From positions 1-64,000 of the forward strand of contig NZ_VORR01000016.1 in the NCBI RefSeq assembly GCF_007997085.1: a stretch of DNA of 64,000 nucleotides, in the 5' to 3' direction. Positions 17,551 to 46,770 of this stretch are shown in pieces (within the stretch, counting starts at the first letter, position 1; every line of letters begins with the position of its first letter). The notes under the pieces are model-generated. The model searched no databases. It was given only the letters and a program-made list of their open reading frames with translations, and was not told the origin of the DNA. A program made the position numbers and the translations under genes. This DNA is from Polaribacter sp. IC066 (GTDB taxonomy: Bacteria; Bacteroidota; Bacteroidia; Flavobacteriales; Flavobacteriaceae).

Positions 17551-17600
17551 TTTAGCCACGAGTTCACAACTATTTTTTGTGAGTTCGTGGCTAAACTTTT
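17551..17600 (+). terminator. Long inverted repeat, probable lysA terminator
   Basis: A 19-bp stem (17551-17569 with 17577-17595, two G-T pairs) closes a 7-nt loop, built from TTTAGCCACGA and its complement. The phrase TTCGTGGCTA recurs at about 18322, so the arms belong to a dispersed repeat. It lies between the lysA stop and the acetyltransferase start. Confidence 0.7.
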
Positions 17601-17614
17601 TAAAATACTTTTTG

Positions 17615-18127
17615 ATGAAAATTAGACTTTCTACTTCGGATGATATTCCGAATATTATATCCATTATTGATGATGCAAAAGAATATTTGGCATCTCAAAA
17701 AATTAATCAATGGCAAAACGGATATCCAAATAAGGAACAAATTGAGAATGATATCAAAAACGGAGAAAGTTATGTGGTTTTAAATTATGAACACCAAGTG
17801 ATGGCAACTTCGATGTTTACCACAAACCCAGAACCAACCTATAAAATTATTGATGGCAATTGGATCATCGATGAAACCATAAAATACGGGGTAATTCATA
17901 GAATGGCAATTAAAAAAGAATTTCGAAAATTAGGCTTGGCAACGATTTTGTTTGATGAGTTTCATCAACAGTTAAAAAACCAAAACATACAAAGTTTAAA
18001 GATTGATACGCATGAAGAAAATATAGGCATGCAGTCTTTAATTAAAAAATTGGGTTATAGCTACTGTGGAATAATTTACACGAGTTATGGAGATAAAAGA
18101 TTCGCTTTTGAAAAAGTAATTTTGTGA
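17615..18127 (+). CDS. GNAT family N-acetyltransferase
   Basis: 170 aa from the ATG at 17615. An upstream GTG at 17579 lies inside the terminator-like hairpin and adds a non-conserved piece, so it is rejected. The fold begins with IRLSTSDDIPNIISII. The acetyl-CoA site motif is HRMAIKKEFRKLGLATIL (about 101-118), and SLIKKLGYSYCGI is the usual C-terminal helix-strand. The substrate cannot be told from sequence. It follows lysA on the same strand, but the hairpin between them argues for separate control. Confidence 0.8.
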   Translation: MKIRLSTSDDIPNIISIIDDAKEYLASQKINQWQNGYPNKEQIENDIKNGESYVVLNYEHQVMATSMFTTNPEPTYKIIDGNWIIDETIKYGVIHRMAIKKEFRKLGLATILFDEFHQQLKNQNIQSLKIDTHEENIGMQSLIKKLGYSYCGIIYTSYGDKRFAFEKVIL

Positions 18128-18170
18128 AAAATTGAAACAAATTAATAAATAACTTATTGAAGCTTCTCGA

Positions 18171-18293
18171 TACAATCCCGCCCAAAAGCGGAATCACTCG
18201 AAGTGACAGCGTGTTCTTACTTATGCTCGAATTTTACACATGTTGTCACATCGAGTGAAATTCTTTTTTCAAGAATTTTGTATCGAGATGTTT
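18171..18293. repeat. Inverted pair of the hairpin repeat found in the tex array
   Basis: Bases 18171-18222 are a reverse-complement copy of the CTTCGAGTGATCTCGCTTTT type repeat of the following array, continuing to the GTTCTTAC end. Bases 18241-18293 are a diverged forward copy (TCGAGTGAAATTC...TATCGAGATG). The two face each other and border the array on its left. Confidence 0.6.
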
Positions 18294-18332
18294 TACATAC
18301 CTATTTTGTTTAATTCGTTAATTCGTGGCTAC

Positions 18333-20960
18333 CATTTTATAAATATTCCACCGTTAAACAGAACATAAAATGCAACAACGTCAATATATAATTCAACAAA
18401 CACAACTTTCTTCAAAATTTGTAGAAAAGACAATTAGCTAATAAAATAAAAAGTGATAATACATGCTAAAATATAGATTAAAATATGAGTAACATATCAG
18501 TAAGAACAGCATGTCACTTCGAGTGATCTCGCTTTTGGGCGAGATTGTATCGAGAAGTTTTTAGTTAAAAATTCCTAGTTCCTATTTTAAAATATTTCAT
18601 CCAATTCAAAACATAAAAATGCAACAACTCCAATATATAATTTAACAAACATAATTTTCTTCAAAATCTGTAGAAAAGACAATTAGCTTATTAAATAAAA
18701 AGTGACAATACATGCTAAAATATAGATTAAAATATGCGCAACATATCAGTAAGAACAACATGTCACTTCGAGTGATCTCGCTTTTGGGCGAGATTGTATC
18801 GAGAAGTTTTTAGCGAAGAGCCAAAATTTCTAGTTTCTATTTTAAAATATTTCATCTAATTCAGAACAAAAAATGTAACTACTCCAATGTATAATTCAAC
18901 AAACACAACTTTCTTCAAAATCTATAGAAAAGACAATTAGCTTATTAAATAAAAAGTGATAATACATGCTAAAATATAAATTAAAATATGCACAACATAT
19001 AAGTAAGACCACAATGTCACTTCGAGTGATCTCGCTTTTAGGCGAGATTGTATCGAGAAGTTTTTAGTTAAAAATTCCTAGTTCCTGTTTTAAAATACTC
19101 CATCTAAATCCAAAACCAAAAATGCAAATACTCCAATATATAATTCAACAAACACAACTTTCTTTAAAATCTGCAGAAAAGACAATTAGTTTATTAAATG
19201 AAAAGTGACAACGCGTGCTAAAATATAAATTAAAATATGCACAACATATGAGTAAGAACATCGTGTCCCTTCGAGTGATCTCGCTTTTGGGCGAGATTGT
19301 ATCGAGAAGTTTTAACTCAAAATTCCTAGTTCCTGTTTTAAAATACTCCATCTAAATCCAAAACCAAAAATGCAAATACTCCAATATATAATTCAACCAA
19401 CACAACTTTCTTTAAAATCTGCAGAAAAGACAATTAGTTTATTGAATGAAAAGTGACAACGCGTGCTAAAATATAGATTAAAATATGAGTAACATATCAG
19501 TAAGAACAGCATGTCCCTTCGAGTGATCTCGCTTTTGGGTAAGATTGTATCGAGAAGTTTTTAGTTAAAAATTCCTAGTTCCTATTTTAAAATATTTCAT
19601 CCAATTCAAAACATAAAAATGCAACAACTCCAATATATAATTTAACAAACATAATTTTCTTCAAAATCTGTAGAAAAGACAATTAGCTTATTAAATAAAA
19701 AGTGACAATACATGCTAAAATATAGATTAAAATATGCGCAACATATCAGTAAGAACAACATGTCACTTCGAGTGATCTCGCTTTTGGGCGAGATTGTATC
19801 GAGAAGTTTTTAGCGAAGAGCCAAAATTTCTAGTTCCTATTTTAAAATACTCCATCTAAATCCAAAACCAAAAATGCAAATACTCCAATATATAATTCAA
19901 CAAACACAACTTTCTTTAAAATCTGCAGAAAAGACAATTAGTTTATTGAATGAAAAGTGACAGCGCGTGCTAAAATATAAATTAAAATATGCACAACATA
20001 TGAGTAAGAACAACATGTCACTTCGAGTGATCTCGCTTTTGGGCGAGATTGTATCGAGAAGTTTTTAGCGAAGAGCCAAAATTTCTAGTTCCTATTTTAA
20101 AATATTTCATCTAATTCAGAACAAAAAATGTAACTACTCCAATATATAATTCAACAAACACAACTTTCTTCAAAATCTATAGAAAAGACAATTAGCTTAT
20201 TAAATAAAAAGTGACAATACATGCTAAAATATAGATTAAAATATGCGCAACATATCAGTAAGAACAACATGTCACTTCGAGTGATCTCGCTTTTGGGCGA
20301 GATTGTATCGAGAAGTTTTTAGCGAAGAGCCAAAATTTCTAGTTCCTATTTTAAAATACTCCATCTAAATCCAAAACCAAAAATGCAAATACTCCAATAT
20401 ATAATTCAACAAACACAACTTTCTTCAAAATCTATAGAAAAGACAATTAGCTTATTAAATAAAAAGTGATAATACATGCTAAAATATAAATTAAAATATG
20501 CACAACATATGAGTAAGAACATCGTGTCCCTTCGAGTGATCTCGCTTTTGGGCGAGATTGTATCGAGAAGTTTTAATTAAAAATTCCTAGTTCCTATTTT
20601 AAAAATACTCCATCTAAATCAAAACAAAAAATGCAACTACTCCAATATATAATTCAACCAACACAACTTTTTTCAAAATCTGTAGAAAACACGATTACTT
20701 AATTGAATGAAAAGTGACAACGCGTGCTAAAATATAAATTAAAATATGTGCTACATATGATTAAGAACATCGTGTCTCTTCGAGTGATCTCGCTTTTGGG
20801 CGAGATTGTATCGAGAAGTTTTAATTAAAAATTCCTAGTTCCTATTTTAAAAATACTCCATCTAATTCAAAACAAAAAATGCAACTACTCCAATATATAA
20901 TTCAACAAACACAACTTTCTTCAAAATCTATAGAAAACACGATTACTTTATTAAATGAAG
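18333..20960 (+). repeat. Ten tandem ~250-bp copies of the tex leader and first codons, ending at the real tex start
   Basis: A unit of 248-255 bp is repeated. The tex-like start codons lie at 18370, 18619, 18873, 19122, 19370, 19619, 19874, 20128, 20383 and 20631; the eleventh is the real tex ATG at 20879. Each unit holds, in order, a leader (CTAGTTCCTATTTTAAAAT...), a copy of about the first 27 codons of tex, an AT-rich spacer of about 80 bp, and a hairpin repeat (CACT-TCG-AGTG then ATCTCGC-TTTTGG-GCGAGAT). Similarity to tex stops after the codons for LLNE. Copies at 18873 and 20128 have ATG followed directly by TAA; 18619 and 19619 stop after 8 codons; 19122, 19370, 19874 and 20383 encode 28-residue peptides. 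The segment near 18480-18850 is almost repeated 1000 bp further on, so groups of four units were also copied. Confidence 0.95.
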
Positions 20961-23002
20961 ACGCTACAATCCCCTTTATATCAAGATATAGAAAGGAAAT
21001 AACAGGCAATTTAGATGAAGTTCAAATTGGTGATATTGTAAAGTTTAAAGAACTTTTTGAAGCGTTAGAAAAGCGTAAAGCGAGGATTTTAAAAGCCTTG
21101 GAAGAACAAAATGTTTTAACGCCGGCTTTAGAAGAACAGGTAAAAATTACCAAAGATTTAATTTCTTTAGAAGATTTATATCTACCCTTTAAGAAAAAAC
21201 GAAAAACGAAAGCAGAAACTGCGCGTTTACAAGGTCTAGAACCGTTGGCAAAACTGATGATGAGTCAGCGTGTAAATGATTTAGAACATACAGCCTCAAC
21301 ATACACAACCAACGAAGTTGAAACTATTGAAGACGCTTTAGAGGGAGCACGTTTTATTATTGCAGAATGGATCAATGAACGCACAGATATTAGAAATAAT
21401 ATCCGACGTGAATTAGAACGACATACTACAATTGCATCCAAAGTCATAAAAACTAAAATTGAAGACGAAAAAGCACAAAAATTTAAAGATTATTTTGACT
21501 GGCAAGAGTCTTTAAATAGAATTCCATCTCATAGATTATTAGCAATTTTAAGAGCAGAAAATGAAGGTTTTATCCGCGTTAAAATTGCCATTGATTCAGA
21601 GAGAATTTTAGAGAGAATAAAAAATAGAATTATCAAAACTCAAAATGAATGTTCGCCTCAAATTGAATTGGCTATTCAAGATGCTTTTAAACGCTTATTA
21701 TTCCCTTCTTTGTCAAACGAAGCACTGTCAATTGCCAAAGAAAAAGCAGATGAAAATGCCATTACCGTTTTTGCGAAAAACCTACAGCAACTATTACTAG
21801 GCGCGCCTTTAGGAGGAAAAAGAGTTTTAGCAATCGACCCTGGTTTTAGATCGGGTTGTAAAGTTGTTTGTTTAAATGAGCAAGGAGATTTAGTGCACAA
21901 CGACAATATCTATCCGCATGCCCCACAAAATAAAGCTGCAGAGGCTATAGACAAGATTAGTTCTTTAGTTGATCAATATAAAATTGATGCAATTGCCATT
22001 GGAAACGGAACCGCTTCAAGAGAAACAGAACAACTAATTAAAAAGATTCAGTTCAAAAATAACGTAGAAATTTTTGTCGTTAGTGAAGCTGGCGCGTCTA
22101 TTTATTCAGCGTCAAAAATTGCAAGAGATGAATTCCCTGATTATGATGTTACGGTTCGTGGATCGGTTTCTATCGGAAGACGACTGCAAGATCCTTTGGC
22201 AGAATTAGTGAAAATTGATGCAAAATCGATTGGCGTTGGGCAATATCAGCATGATGTAGATCAATCAAAATTAAAGAAATCTTTAGACATCACTGTAGAA
22301 AGTTGTGTAAATACTGTGGGTGTAAATATCAATACCGCCAGTGAATCTTTGTTGAGTTATGTATCCGGAATCGGACCAAAATTAGCGGAGAATATTGTAA
22401 ATTATAGAAATGAAAACGGTTCTTTTGCTTCAAGAACTGCCATTAAAAAAGTGCCTCGTTTAGGTGGAAAAGCATTTGAACAAGCTGGTGGTTTTTTAAG
22501 AATTAAAAACGGAAAAAATCCTTTAGATGATTCTGGCGTGCATCCAGAAAGTTATGGGTTGGTTGATGCAATGGCCAAGAACTTGCAAAAAAAGGTTTCC
22601 GACTTAATCGGAAATAAAGAGTTGCTTCAAAAAATAAATTTAAAAAATTATATTTCATCCACCATCGGATTGCCAACTTTAGAAGATATTATTAAAGAAT
22701 TAGAAAAACCCGGTGTAGACCCAAGAGCAAAAGCGAAAGCATTTTCTTTTGATCAAAATTTGAATTCAATTTCGGATGTAAGCGCAGGGCAAATTTTACC
22801 AGGAATTGTAAATAATATTACCAATTTTGGATGTTTTGTAGATCTTGGAATTAAAGAAAGTGGCTTAATTCACGTTTCTAATTTGTCTGATACTTTTGTA
22901 AAAGATGTCAATGCCATTGTTACTTTGCAACAACAAATTACTGTAAAAGTTTTAGAAGTTGATGCGGTAAGGAAGAGAATTCAACTGGCTTTGGTGAAGT
23001 AG
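20879..23002 (+). CDS. tex: Tex-family RNA-binding transcription accessory protein
   Basis: 707 aa, nearly full length for Tex. N-terminal helical domain with ATIPFISRYRKEITGNLDE (about 29-47), YqgF/RNase-H-like domain starting at RVLAIDPGFRSGCKVVCL (about 315-332), helix-hairpin-helix segments (SGIGPKLAENIVNYR and KVPRLGGKAFEQAGGFLRI in parts), and a C-terminal S1 RNA-binding domain (GQILPGIVNNITNFGCFVDL, about 635-654). Tex-type proteins bind nucleic acid and RNA polymerase; their exact role is unsettled. The start codon is the last of eleven equivalent ATGs in the tandem array upstream, and only this frame continues. The array may affect its expression. Confidence 0.93.
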   Translation: MQLLQYIIQQTQLSSKSIENTITLLNEDATIPFISRYRKEITGNLDEVQIGDIVKFKELFEALEKRKARILKALEEQNVLTPALEEQVKITKDLISLEDLYLPFKKKRKTKAETARLQGLEPLAKLMMSQRVNDLEHTASTYTTNEVETIEDALEGARFIIAEWINERTDIRNNIRRELERHTTIASKVIKTKIEDEKAQKFKDYFDWQESLNRIPSHRLLAILRAENEGFIRVKIAIDSERILERIKNRIIKTQNECSPQIELAIQDAFKRLLFPSLSNEALSIAKEKADENAITVFAKNLQQLLLGAPLGGKRVLAIDPGFRSGCKVVCLNEQGDLVHNDNIYPHAPQNKAAEAIDKISSLVDQYKIDAIAIGNGTASRETEQLIKKIQFKNNVEIFVVSEAGASIYSASKIARDEFPDYDVTVRGSVSIGRRLQDPLAELVKIDAKSIGVGQYQHDVDQSKLKKSLDITVESCVNTVGVNINTASESLLSYVSGIGPKLAENIVNYRNENGSFASRTAIKKVPRLGGKAFEQAGGFLRIKNGKNPLDDSGVHPESYGLVDAMAKNLQKKVSDLIGNKELLQKINLKNYISSTIGLPTLEDIIKELEKPGVDPRAKAKAFSFDQNLNSISDVSAGQILPGIVNNITNFGCFVDLGIKESGLIHVSNLSDTFVKDVNAIVTLQQQITVKVLEVDAVRKRIQLALVK

Positions 23003-23226: not shown

Positions 23227-23646
23227 ATGGATATTCAAACTGCAAAAATAGAATTAGTAAAAGAAATTTTAAATATTGATGCTCCTGAATTGATAGAAAA
23301 AGTAGCAAATCTTCTAAAAAAAGAGAAAAAAGATTTTTGGGATGATCTAATTCCTTACCAACAAGAAGAAATTACAAAAGCGGATTTGGAAATTCTTAAT
23401 GAAGAAACTTTCGACTACGAAACTTTAATGGCTTCTCATAGAAATAGGAAATTAAACTTCATAAAAGATTTTATAAATTTAGAGAACGAAGAAACAATTT
23501 CTAAACTTGAAAATATACTTTGGAAAAATAAAGATTTTTGGAATGAATTAAGTCTTTCTGAAAAAGAAGAAATTCAACAAGGAATTAAAGAATTAGATGA
23601 AGGTAAAAAAGTTTCTTTTGAAGATTTTTTAAGTAAAGTTTCCTAA
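23227..23646 (+). CDS. Antitoxin-like protein with internal duplication
   Basis: 139 acidic, helix-rich residues. Two halves resemble each other: residues 10-70 (LVKEILNID...KKDFWDDLIPYQQEEI) and about 78-139 (FIKDFINLE...NKDFWNELSLSEKEEI). The C-terminal part, EIQQGIKELDEGKKVSFEDF, looks like the toxin-binding tail of small antitoxins paired with RelE/ParE toxins in Bacteroidetes. Its stop codon overlaps the toxin ATG by one base (TAATG), as in two-gene toxin-antitoxin operons. No DNA-binding domain is obvious, so autoregulation is uncertain. Confidence 0.75.
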   Translation: MDIQTAKIELVKEILNIDAPELIEKVANLLKKEKKDFWDDLIPYQQEEITKADLEILNEETFDYETLMASHRNRKLNFIKDFINLENEETISKLENILWKNKDFWNELSLSEKEEIQQGIKELDEGKKVSFEDFLSKVS

Positions 23647-23948
23647 TGAAAGTTAGTCTTTCTAATCGTGCCGAATATAAATTACTACAAATCTCTAATT
23701 ACCTTTTAGAGAATTGGAGTTTGCAGTCTAAAAATGATTTCATAAAAAATCTTTACGAAAAAGTAGAGCAAATAAAAAAGTATCCTTATAGCTGTATTGA
23801 ATCTTTTGAATATAAAGGTTTGTATAAATGTGTTGTTTCAAAACAAACTACTTTTTATTATAGAGTTTTAAAAGATAAAGATGAAATAGAAATAATTTCC
23901 GTTTTTGATACAAGACAAAATCCTGATAAGTTAAATAGAGATTTATAA
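23646..23948 (+). CDS. RelE/ParE-family toxin
   Basis: 100 aa. The fold of RelE/ParE toxins is visible: VSLSNRAEYKLLQISNYLLENW (helical hairpin after the first strand, in two parts), FIKNLYEKVEQIKKYPYSC, GLYKCVVSKQTTFYYRV and EIEIISVFDTRQNPDKL at the C-terminus. RelE-type members cut mRNA at the ribosome and ParE-type members poison gyrase; the sequence alone does not decide. The one-base overlap with the upstream antitoxin-like gene supports a toxin-antitoxin pair. topB starts 45 nt later. Confidence 0.85.
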   Translation: MKVSLSNRAEYKLLQISNYLLENWSLQSKNDFIKNLYEKVEQIKKYPYSCIESFEYKGLYKCVVSKQTTFYYRVLKDKDEIEIISVFDTRQNPDKLNRDL

Positions 23949-45922: not shown

Positions 45923-46000
45923 CATTCTTGTCAGATAAAAGACTCAAGATTGCTCCGTTTTTATTAGACAAGATTGCTCCGTTTTTATTAGACAAGATTG
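45923..46000 (+). repeat. Dispersed CATTCTTGTC repeat with a 24-bp tandem duplication
   Basis: A 24-bp unit (AGATTGCTCC...ATTAGACA) occurs twice, at 45947-45970 and 45971-45994, and a third copy begins at 45995. The preceding CATTCTTGTCAGATAAAAG and CTCAAGAT recur almost unchanged at 51578-51605, again just behind a stop codon. TCTTG and CAAGA can pair, so this may also work as a weak terminator. Confidence 0.7.
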
Positions 46001-46770
46001 CTTTTAATAATGTGTTTACTAAAATATTGATAGATAGTAAAGAGTATTATTTAGAAGCAACCGATAAGTTTTTCCTTTTGGGTAGGTACCTGTTAAAACA
46101 CTAAATGGGCAAGCAAGAATCATCAACTATAAAAAAGAAAGTAATTGGGTTTATGTAAGTTTGAAAATTAAATCTTCAAAAAATGTTACTGCTAATTTAG
46201 TTTTAAATAAAAAAGCTGAACTCACTAAACACTTATTAATTAAAAGGCTAGGCTATGCTACTCAAATACAAAGGAACTAATTAAAGGTATTAGGTTTTGA
46301 AAACTATCTATAAAAATTTACAGCAGATAATCAGGATATTGAAGCAAAAGATTGCATAATTCGTTTTCAAGATAAATTAAACAAAGCATTGCAAAAAGTT
46401 TTCAAAATAAATGTAATGATGACCAATGACTTCATCAAGAAAACAAGAATTACTCCTTCCTTTTTTGATCAACTAAAAGAAATAAATAATACTGTAGCTT
46501 TTGGTTTTGACAAAAAAATAGCTTTGCTTTAAGTTTGGAAATTGCACCCCCCTATTAAAGAACCCTACTCCCAAAAGAAATCGCAAATTCTTTGCCTAAT
46601 AAAGGAGGCCGGTTATTCTTAAAGTAGACAACAAAGGTAAATTATTTCCTATTTACTAAAGAATGTCGCTTAATCAGAAGGCTTACAATTCTGAAGAATA
46701 TTTTGCTTTAAAGAAATTTTTAACAAGTTGTCATTGCAAAAAACTCATATCTAACTTTAGAAAAAAATAA
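45998..46770 (+). pseudogene. Decayed C-terminal part of a DUF3857/DUF3858 transglutaminase-like protein
   Basis: Translating in shifting frames gives, in order: FNNVFTKILIDSKEYYLEATDK, split here as FNNVFTKILIDS and KEYYLEATDK (about 46000-46070); LNGQARIINYKKESNWVYV (about 46100-46160); MMTNDFIKKTRITPSFF (about 46420-46470); PKEIANSLPNKGG (about 46570-46610); and NSEEYFALKKFL up to the stop at 46768-46770. These match the order of the end of the transglutaminase domain, the linker and DUF3858 in large Bacteroidetes secreted proteins. Several frameshifts and stops separate the pieces, and the N-terminal part is missing. Confidence 0.7.

Follow-up and report, generated by a model that had tools for sequence, protein, structure and literature searches.

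The tandem array that precedes tex in Polaribacter sp. IC066 probably arose by amplification of a mobile-looking palindrome, here termed H1, with the 5′ end of tex carried along as a passenger and with predicted cleavage by a GIY-YIG endonuclease starting the duplication. The array is not a tex-specific device; eight other stretches fetched from the same genome contain H1 arrays. H1 forms a dispersed family, inverted H1 pairs fill the gnat-tex gap in some relatives, palindromes and GIY-YIG genes are paired clade by clade, and the arrays have locus-specific spacers.

Analysis of the window (the whole 64-kb stretch of DNA studied, which lies within contig C74) with TRF revealed a 248-bp period repeated 10.3 times across 18362-20956 (89% matches, score 3845) and, for periods up to 500, no second array in the window with a period above 24 bp. 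A perfect 24-bp tandem repeat of 2.4 copies is found at 45945-46002. Units are 248-255 bp long and are ordered as a diverged tex leader with the first ~27 codons, a spacer and an H1 hairpin, and the ten hairpins recur at that spacing from 18517 to 20778, all on the plus strand, with intact tex following the array (Table 1). The TRF result, the hairpin spacing and the eleven tex-like starts bear out the claim of an earlier note that ten tandem ~250-bp units stand before tex, and the content of the units agrees with its view that the tex 5′ end has been amplified. The start at 20879, the last of the eleven, is the true tex start, as also claimed there; following that note, we take the open reading frame that begins at this position to be tex. 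All ten tex-start copies differ from tex. The description of these copies as decayed is accurate for six of them as reading frames, which are broken by a stop at codon 2, 9 or 24 within the tex-derived part, but not for the other four, in which the frame is open up to the junction and stops at codon 29 just beyond it.

Table 1. Features of the window around tex (positions in the window) and H1 arrays elsewhere in the same genome (by contig).
Feature	Location	Strand	Remark
Acetyltransferase-like (GNAT) gene	17579..18127	+	named by look; ORF listed from GTG
Inverted H1 pair after gnat, left hairpin	18165..18201	-	
Inverted H1 pair after gnat, right hairpin	18251..18288	+	stem AAATTC/GAATTT
Array of ten units, each with tex leader, ~27 codons, spacer and H1	18325..20833	+	
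tex-start copy 1	18370..18450	+	stop at codon 24
H1 hairpin, unit 1	18519..18555	+	
tex-start copy 2	18619..18699	+	stop at codon 9
H1 hairpin, unit 2	18768..18804	+	
tex-start copy 3	18873..18953	+	stop at codon 2
H1 hairpin, unit 3	19022..19058	+	
tex-start copy 4	19122..19202	+	open to junction
H1 hairpin, unit 4	19271..19307	+	
tex-start copy 5	19370..19450	+	open to junction
H1 hairpin, unit 5	19519..19555	+	
tex-start copy 6	19619..19699	+	stop at codon 9
H1 hairpin, unit 6	19768..19804	+	
tex-start copy 7	19874..19954	+	open to junction
H1 hairpin, unit 7	20023..20059	+	
tex-start copy 8	20128..20208	+	stop at codon 2
H1 hairpin, unit 8	20277..20313	+	
tex-start copy 9	20383..20463	+	open to junction
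H1 hairpin, unit 9	20532..20568	+	
tex-start copy 10	20631..20711	+	stop at codon 24
H1 hairpin, unit 10	20780..20816	+	
tex, intact	20879..23002	+	707 codons; array copies derive from its first ~27
H1 array	C92		218-bp unit; overlaps ORF 3′ end by 23 bp
H1 arrays	C155 and C89		188-bp unit common to both; probably a single array split by contig ends
H1 array	C107		213-bp unit
H1 array	C144		161 bp, orientation alternating; adjoins 96-aa GIY-YIG gene
H1 array	C143		130-bp unit
H1 array	C136		133-bp unit; overlaps ORF 3′ end by 51 bp
H1 array	C169		151-bp unit; overlaps ORF 3′ end by 79 bp

The array is a mosaic of units that are 80-100% identical in pairwise comparison, and the two halves of one unit can have different best-matching units. 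Exact block repeats of 294 bp at an offset of 1000 bp and of 246 bp at an offset of 509 bp suggest that sequence was copied across distances of four and two units, respectively. Where the tex-derived part ends, after codon ~27, the sequence continues as AAGTGACA, which is the half-cap belonging to the minus-strand hairpin at 18165; this is a single case. A breakpoint in the hairpin cap shared by every array was not supported by the units compared (L198, L206, L208 and L209 left out), in which array edges vary relative to the hairpin. As single-stranded DNA, the inverted H1 pair at 18165-18288 folds with z = −7.7 relative to shuffled sequences and the H1 hairpin of unit 10 alone with z = −3.9; the fold of spacer and hairpin of one unit together is weak (z = −1.85, with 11 of 200 shuffles equally good). 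No Rfam match up to E = 1 was found in 17900-21200, and the array had no DNA match in plasmid records. Downstream of tex, two small overlapping ORFs at 23227-23948 resemble a toxin-antitoxin pair by eye.

Comparison with related genomes, which the earlier note had proposed for copy number, revealed an array abutting tex in none of 99 other tex loci (L022-L120), a sample in which some loci have at most 1.5 kb of upstream sequence, one (L065) begins inside tex and some genomes occur twice (e.g. L037 and L044). In two loci (L107 and L114) an array is present more than 2 kb upstream of tex. The closest named tex matches are from Polaribacter, with identity up to 85%. The gnat gene was upstream of tex in 43 of the 46 Polaribacter-side loci tested, with a gnat-tex gap of 80-93 bp, often ~84 bp, in 20 of these 43 and a filled gap in others. 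For example, in L048 and L062 the gap is 237 bp and contains an inverted H1 hairpin pair after gnat, a pair that the window shares at 18165-18288; H1 pairs are also present in L052 and L032, in the latter of which gnat was not found, and one recognisable half of an H1 pair lies in the gap of L024 and L035. Several short gaps contain a CCTCATAAA..TTTATGAGG stem, which was not found in window positions 18128-20878 with one mismatch allowed. No target-site duplication was noticed in the alignment of the gnat-tex gap. By eye, four loci (L022, L030, L023 and L084) have sequences similar to a second palindrome, H2, in the gap where other Polaribacter have H1 pairs.

These comparisons bear on the possibility that the array regulates tex, acting through promoter or ribosome-site copy number, decoys or small RNAs. 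In its favor, a tex-like leader and ATG are retained in every unit, and in four of the ten copies the frame runs to the junction without a stop; however, the lack of an abutting array at the other tex loci, the early breaks in six frames and the similar arrays adjoining unrelated genes all argue against it, and we consider regulation of tex an unlikely explanation. The earlier note's suggestion that tex is the purpose of the array is thus not upheld, given these tex loci and the H1 arrays at unrelated spots in the genome, and no sequence feature was noticed that speaks for copy-number control of tex, decoy ribosome sites or small RNAs. Since tex is intact at the array end, the array is tolerated.

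The ends of H1 are fixed (TCGAGTGA...TGTATCGAGA), and its inner stem is highly variable yet self-complementary. It is a dispersed repeat family throughout the IC066 genome, in which 69 exact core matches were found compared to 0 for a reversed control pattern, its extragenic position having been judged just at the loci read. In the stem, 5.99 of 7 positions were complementary versus 2.94 (sd 0.07) when the arms were shuffled, based on 269 different inner sequences, among which 132 different 5′ arms occur, from the window and fetched loci, a non-random set in which many loci were chosen for H1 or the nuclease. This complementarity despite variable arms indicates that the structure of H1 is conserved and the stem sequence is not.

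The H1 arrays in the eight further fetched stretches of the IC066 genome have their own spacers, and three of the eight overlap ORF 3′ ends. Of the tex array and the arrays in these fetched stretches, the tex array alone involves a gene 5′ end. The draft status of the assembly (4.28 Mb in 169 contigs), the position of several H1 arrays at contig ends and the exact 294-bp internal repeats, which leave the copy number of the tex array uncertain, would be compatible with an assembly artefact. The divergence among the units speaks against invented copies, and similar H1 arrays are found in three one-contig genomes (G036, G047 and G239), making an artefact very unlikely in our view.

The array on C144 adjoins a gene for a 96-aa standalone GIY-YIG protein with PF01541 as its sole Pfam match (E 1.5e-15). 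This is the one gene of its clade (clade A) in the IC066 genome, and because it lies on a different contig from the tex array, any action on that array would be in trans. In Flavobacteriaceae, a GIY-YIG homologue was found in 224 of the 299 genomes searched, and the loci examined comprised 30 from this family search, 40 further loci taken from its hits, for the most part by rank, and loci from the genus. H1 was present within 600 bp in 62 of 64 clade A hits (at least 60% identity; L123 and L187 are one locus), and within 100 bp on both sides in 51 of the 64, compared to 4 of 56 GIY-YIG hits below 60% identity, a count in which a few loci are doubled and from which four short hits and five loci without a hit were dropped. 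The two misses in the clade A range (L243 and L252) group in the tree with genes that have H2. For 61 distinct clade A genes the median distance to the nearest H1 was 20 bp on the upstream side and 12 bp on the downstream side, with H1 within 25 bp upstream in 36 and downstream in 42; two lacked an upstream H1 and one a downstream H1.

This pairing extends to other palindromes. Among GIY-YIG genes located by profile search, a second group is flanked by H2 (GAGC..GTCGA) and a third by H3 (TGTCATTNCGA), and none of the three palindromes was found at 21 of 127 genes. Among 3,527 pieces of 300 bp from tex loci, the background occurrence was 11 (H1), 23 (H2) and 25 (H3); among 66 tex gene flanks it was 3, 2 and 1, respectively. 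In a tree of 123 GIY-YIG proteins the palindrome label changed 6 times versus at least 46 times in 500 shuffles. The H1 clade held 61 H1 genes among 62 tips (support 0.78), and the biggest clean clade contained 24 of 31 labelled tips for H2 and 9 of 16 for H3. A motif-free test gave a similar picture, with an inverted repeat of at least 11 nt spanning the gene in 81 of 124 GIY-YIG genes versus 37 of 556 control genes. The identity, palindrome-label, tree and inverted-repeat counts contain most of 20 hand-picked stretches, many of them chosen for hairpins or tandem copies, and p values overstate independence because loci and tree rows are related. In a phylum-wide sample, spanning inverted repeats occurred at 9 of 22 solo GIY-YIG genes, six further loci being UvrC-like or without a usable hit. 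Further inverted sequences, such as TCCTGAAACAAGTTCAGGATT and TGTCATTCCTGCGTAGGCAGGAATC, surround GIY-YIG genes in L152, L137, L173, L174 and L179, and a clade B protein had matches in 11 plasmid records, all below 60% identity.

The clade A proteins retain the expected catalytic residues (Y7, Y17 and H31 in 58 of 58, R27 and E65 in 57 of 58), and clades A, B and C all conserve residues at the positions expected for SLX1 Tyr17, Tyr29, Arg39, His43 and Glu82, matched by order and spacing and not by alignment. The H1 partner resembles UPF0213 and other standalone GIY-YIG proteins (PDB 1zg2, 1ywl) and SLX1 in its GIY-YIG domain with conserved Tyr, Tyr, Arg, His and Glu, and differs from UPF0213 and SLX1 in being ~96 aa long, having only a GIY-YIG domain by Pfam and being tied to dispersed palindromes. 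According to the accessible text of one report, SLX1 cuts branched DNA (PMC8287910). GIY-YIG homing endonucleases of the I-TevI type are described, in the portion of the source at hand, as small nucleases encoded by mobile elements (PMC1564403); unlike these, the H1-linked genes are flanked by the palindromes themselves, and no intron or intein was noticed.

Another candidate partner is a RAYT (Y1) transposase, which would make H1 an ordinary REP element. The architecture is as in REP and REPIN systems, and the genome has Y1_Tnp genes (seven matches), yet none of the seven Y1_Tnp loci (L130-L136, up to 1.5 kb on each side, L134 and L136 overlapping) had H1, which instead flanks the clade A GIY-YIG genes. 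On the basis of these seven loci RAYT was rejected as the partner of H1, and we regard mobilisation of H1 by such a transposase as very unlikely.

Comparison of H1 copy number across 58 genomes of the genus revealed a median of 23 copies in the 11 with clade A (here 62% or more identity) versus 3 in the 47 without it, counting copies within arrays (one-sided Mann-Whitney p = 2.1e-5, a generous value since related genomes are not independent). For genomes at least 90% complete, the medians were 26 (n = 10) and 5 (n = 35), respectively. Two genomes have disrupted clade A genes, G041 with five internal stops and 2 H1 copies and G011 with one stop and 14 copies. G008 and G036, with 48 and 44 H1 copies, both lack a clade A gene, indicating that H1 can persist or spread without one.

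Tandem arrays with a period of at least 60 were found at 24 of 93 GIY-YIG loci compared to 6 of 297 control pieces, after hand-picked loci and loci outside 2.5-3.9 kb were dropped, and were unevenly distributed by palindrome label (H1, 14 of 48; H3, 6 of 11; H2, 3 of 24; mixed, 1 of 4; none, 0 of 6). Some GIY-YIG loci copy gene edges. In the IC066 genome, tandem GIY-YIG genes carry in each unit part of the 3′ end of tRNA-Pro (L177, 6778-7453) or part of the 5′ end of tRNA-Leu (L178, 3412-4118), and in the phylum-wide sample tRNA-end repeats were seen by eye beside 5 of 22 GIY-YIG genes (L259, L261, L271, L272 and L274), with no tRNA gene called in L259, which is at a contig start. These units show that copying of gene edges recurs at GIY-YIG loci and is not peculiar to tex. 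The 178-bp repeats of E. coli tyrT also form a tandem unit in which each copy has the edge of the neighbouring gene (the tRNA 3′ end), similar to the inclusion of the adjoining gene's edge in each unit of the tex array; we know of no hairpin family or nuclease for the tyrT repeats. Elsewhere, two clade A genes lie ~1 kb apart inside long alternating H1 arrays (G069 C15 and G265 C1; L206 and L208), and in L186 (1977-3317) a 255-bp unit is repeated about four times behind a GIY-YIG gene, up to the contig end.

The main rival explanation dispenses with the nuclease, holding that the array was built at a stable hairpin by RecA recombination and by slippage of the usual kind during replication, and that the GIY-YIG gene may explain the spread of H1 but not the amplification. 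Hairpins are hot spots of slippage, the mosaic units and block repeats need recombination alone, and G036 has an H1 array in the absence of a clade A gene. In contrast, the enrichment of arrays at GIY-YIG genes, which is weak for the H2 clade, speaks against it, and we give this explanation slightly less than an even chance. The passenger role of tex is common to it and to amplification started by cleavage, so that our estimates for the two overlap and are not exclusive. The earlier note's proposal of slippage between the hairpins is close to the H1-based amplification that we favor.

We propose that amplification started by cleavage would have begun from an H1 pair beside tex in a gnat-tex gap otherwise of ~84 bp. 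A GIY-YIG enzyme may have recognised the H1 hairpin or cruciform and cut or nicked it, and repair of the break would have copied in tandem everything between the hairpin and tex codon ~27. The units could then have recombined unequally, which would have expanded the array and mixed the copies. What the sequences show is the pairing of palindromes with nucleases, the constraint on hairpin structure, the short and filled gaps and the set of arrays; the cut, the duplication and the later expansion are inferred.

The tex array belongs to a known type, namely tandem palindrome clusters with their flanks, such as the REPIN clusters described in the part of the source available to us (PMC3116915). 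Tandem clusters that include flanking sequence are likewise described for REP/REPIN systems in the accessible text of two papers (PMC3116915, PMC2817692), and the tex units similarly hold the palindrome and its flanks but have one H1 per unit and no doublet. Like REP, BIME and REPIN elements, H1 is a short extragenic palindrome, dispersed in many copies per genome and found in inverted pairs, and as in REP/RAYT systems the partner gene is flanked by inverted palindrome copies and sorts together with its palindrome. In contrast to REP, the stem of H1 is hypervariable between fixed ends; these ends are those given above, compared to the GTAG/CGTC-type tag beside the palindrome in REP/RAYT systems (PMC3733652, as far as its accessible text goes). 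The partner also differs, being a GIY-YIG endonuclease with PF01541 as its only Pfam domain and not a Y1 (PF01797) transposase. This replacement of RAYT by a GIY-YIG partner is a variant that we did not find described, as no tie of GIY-YIG genes to bacterial palindromic repeats was present among the literature matches listed, from a search whose coverage stops short of most subscription journals and of bioRxiv preprints.

We lean, if only slightly, towards the broader view that standalone GIY-YIG endonucleases mobilise a large superfamily of bacterial palindromes, with one palindrome per clade (H1, H2, H3 and others, including those at tRNA edges), as a RAYT-independent kind of REP system that breeds arrays in which gene edges are copied. 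Palindromes of the H2 and H3 types resemble repeats of many bacterial genomes, and the clade-by-clade match to a small nuclease family provides a testable source for such palindromes. The match between palindrome and nuclease may represent a new mechanism of transposition or homing, and would explain the amplification of gene edges.
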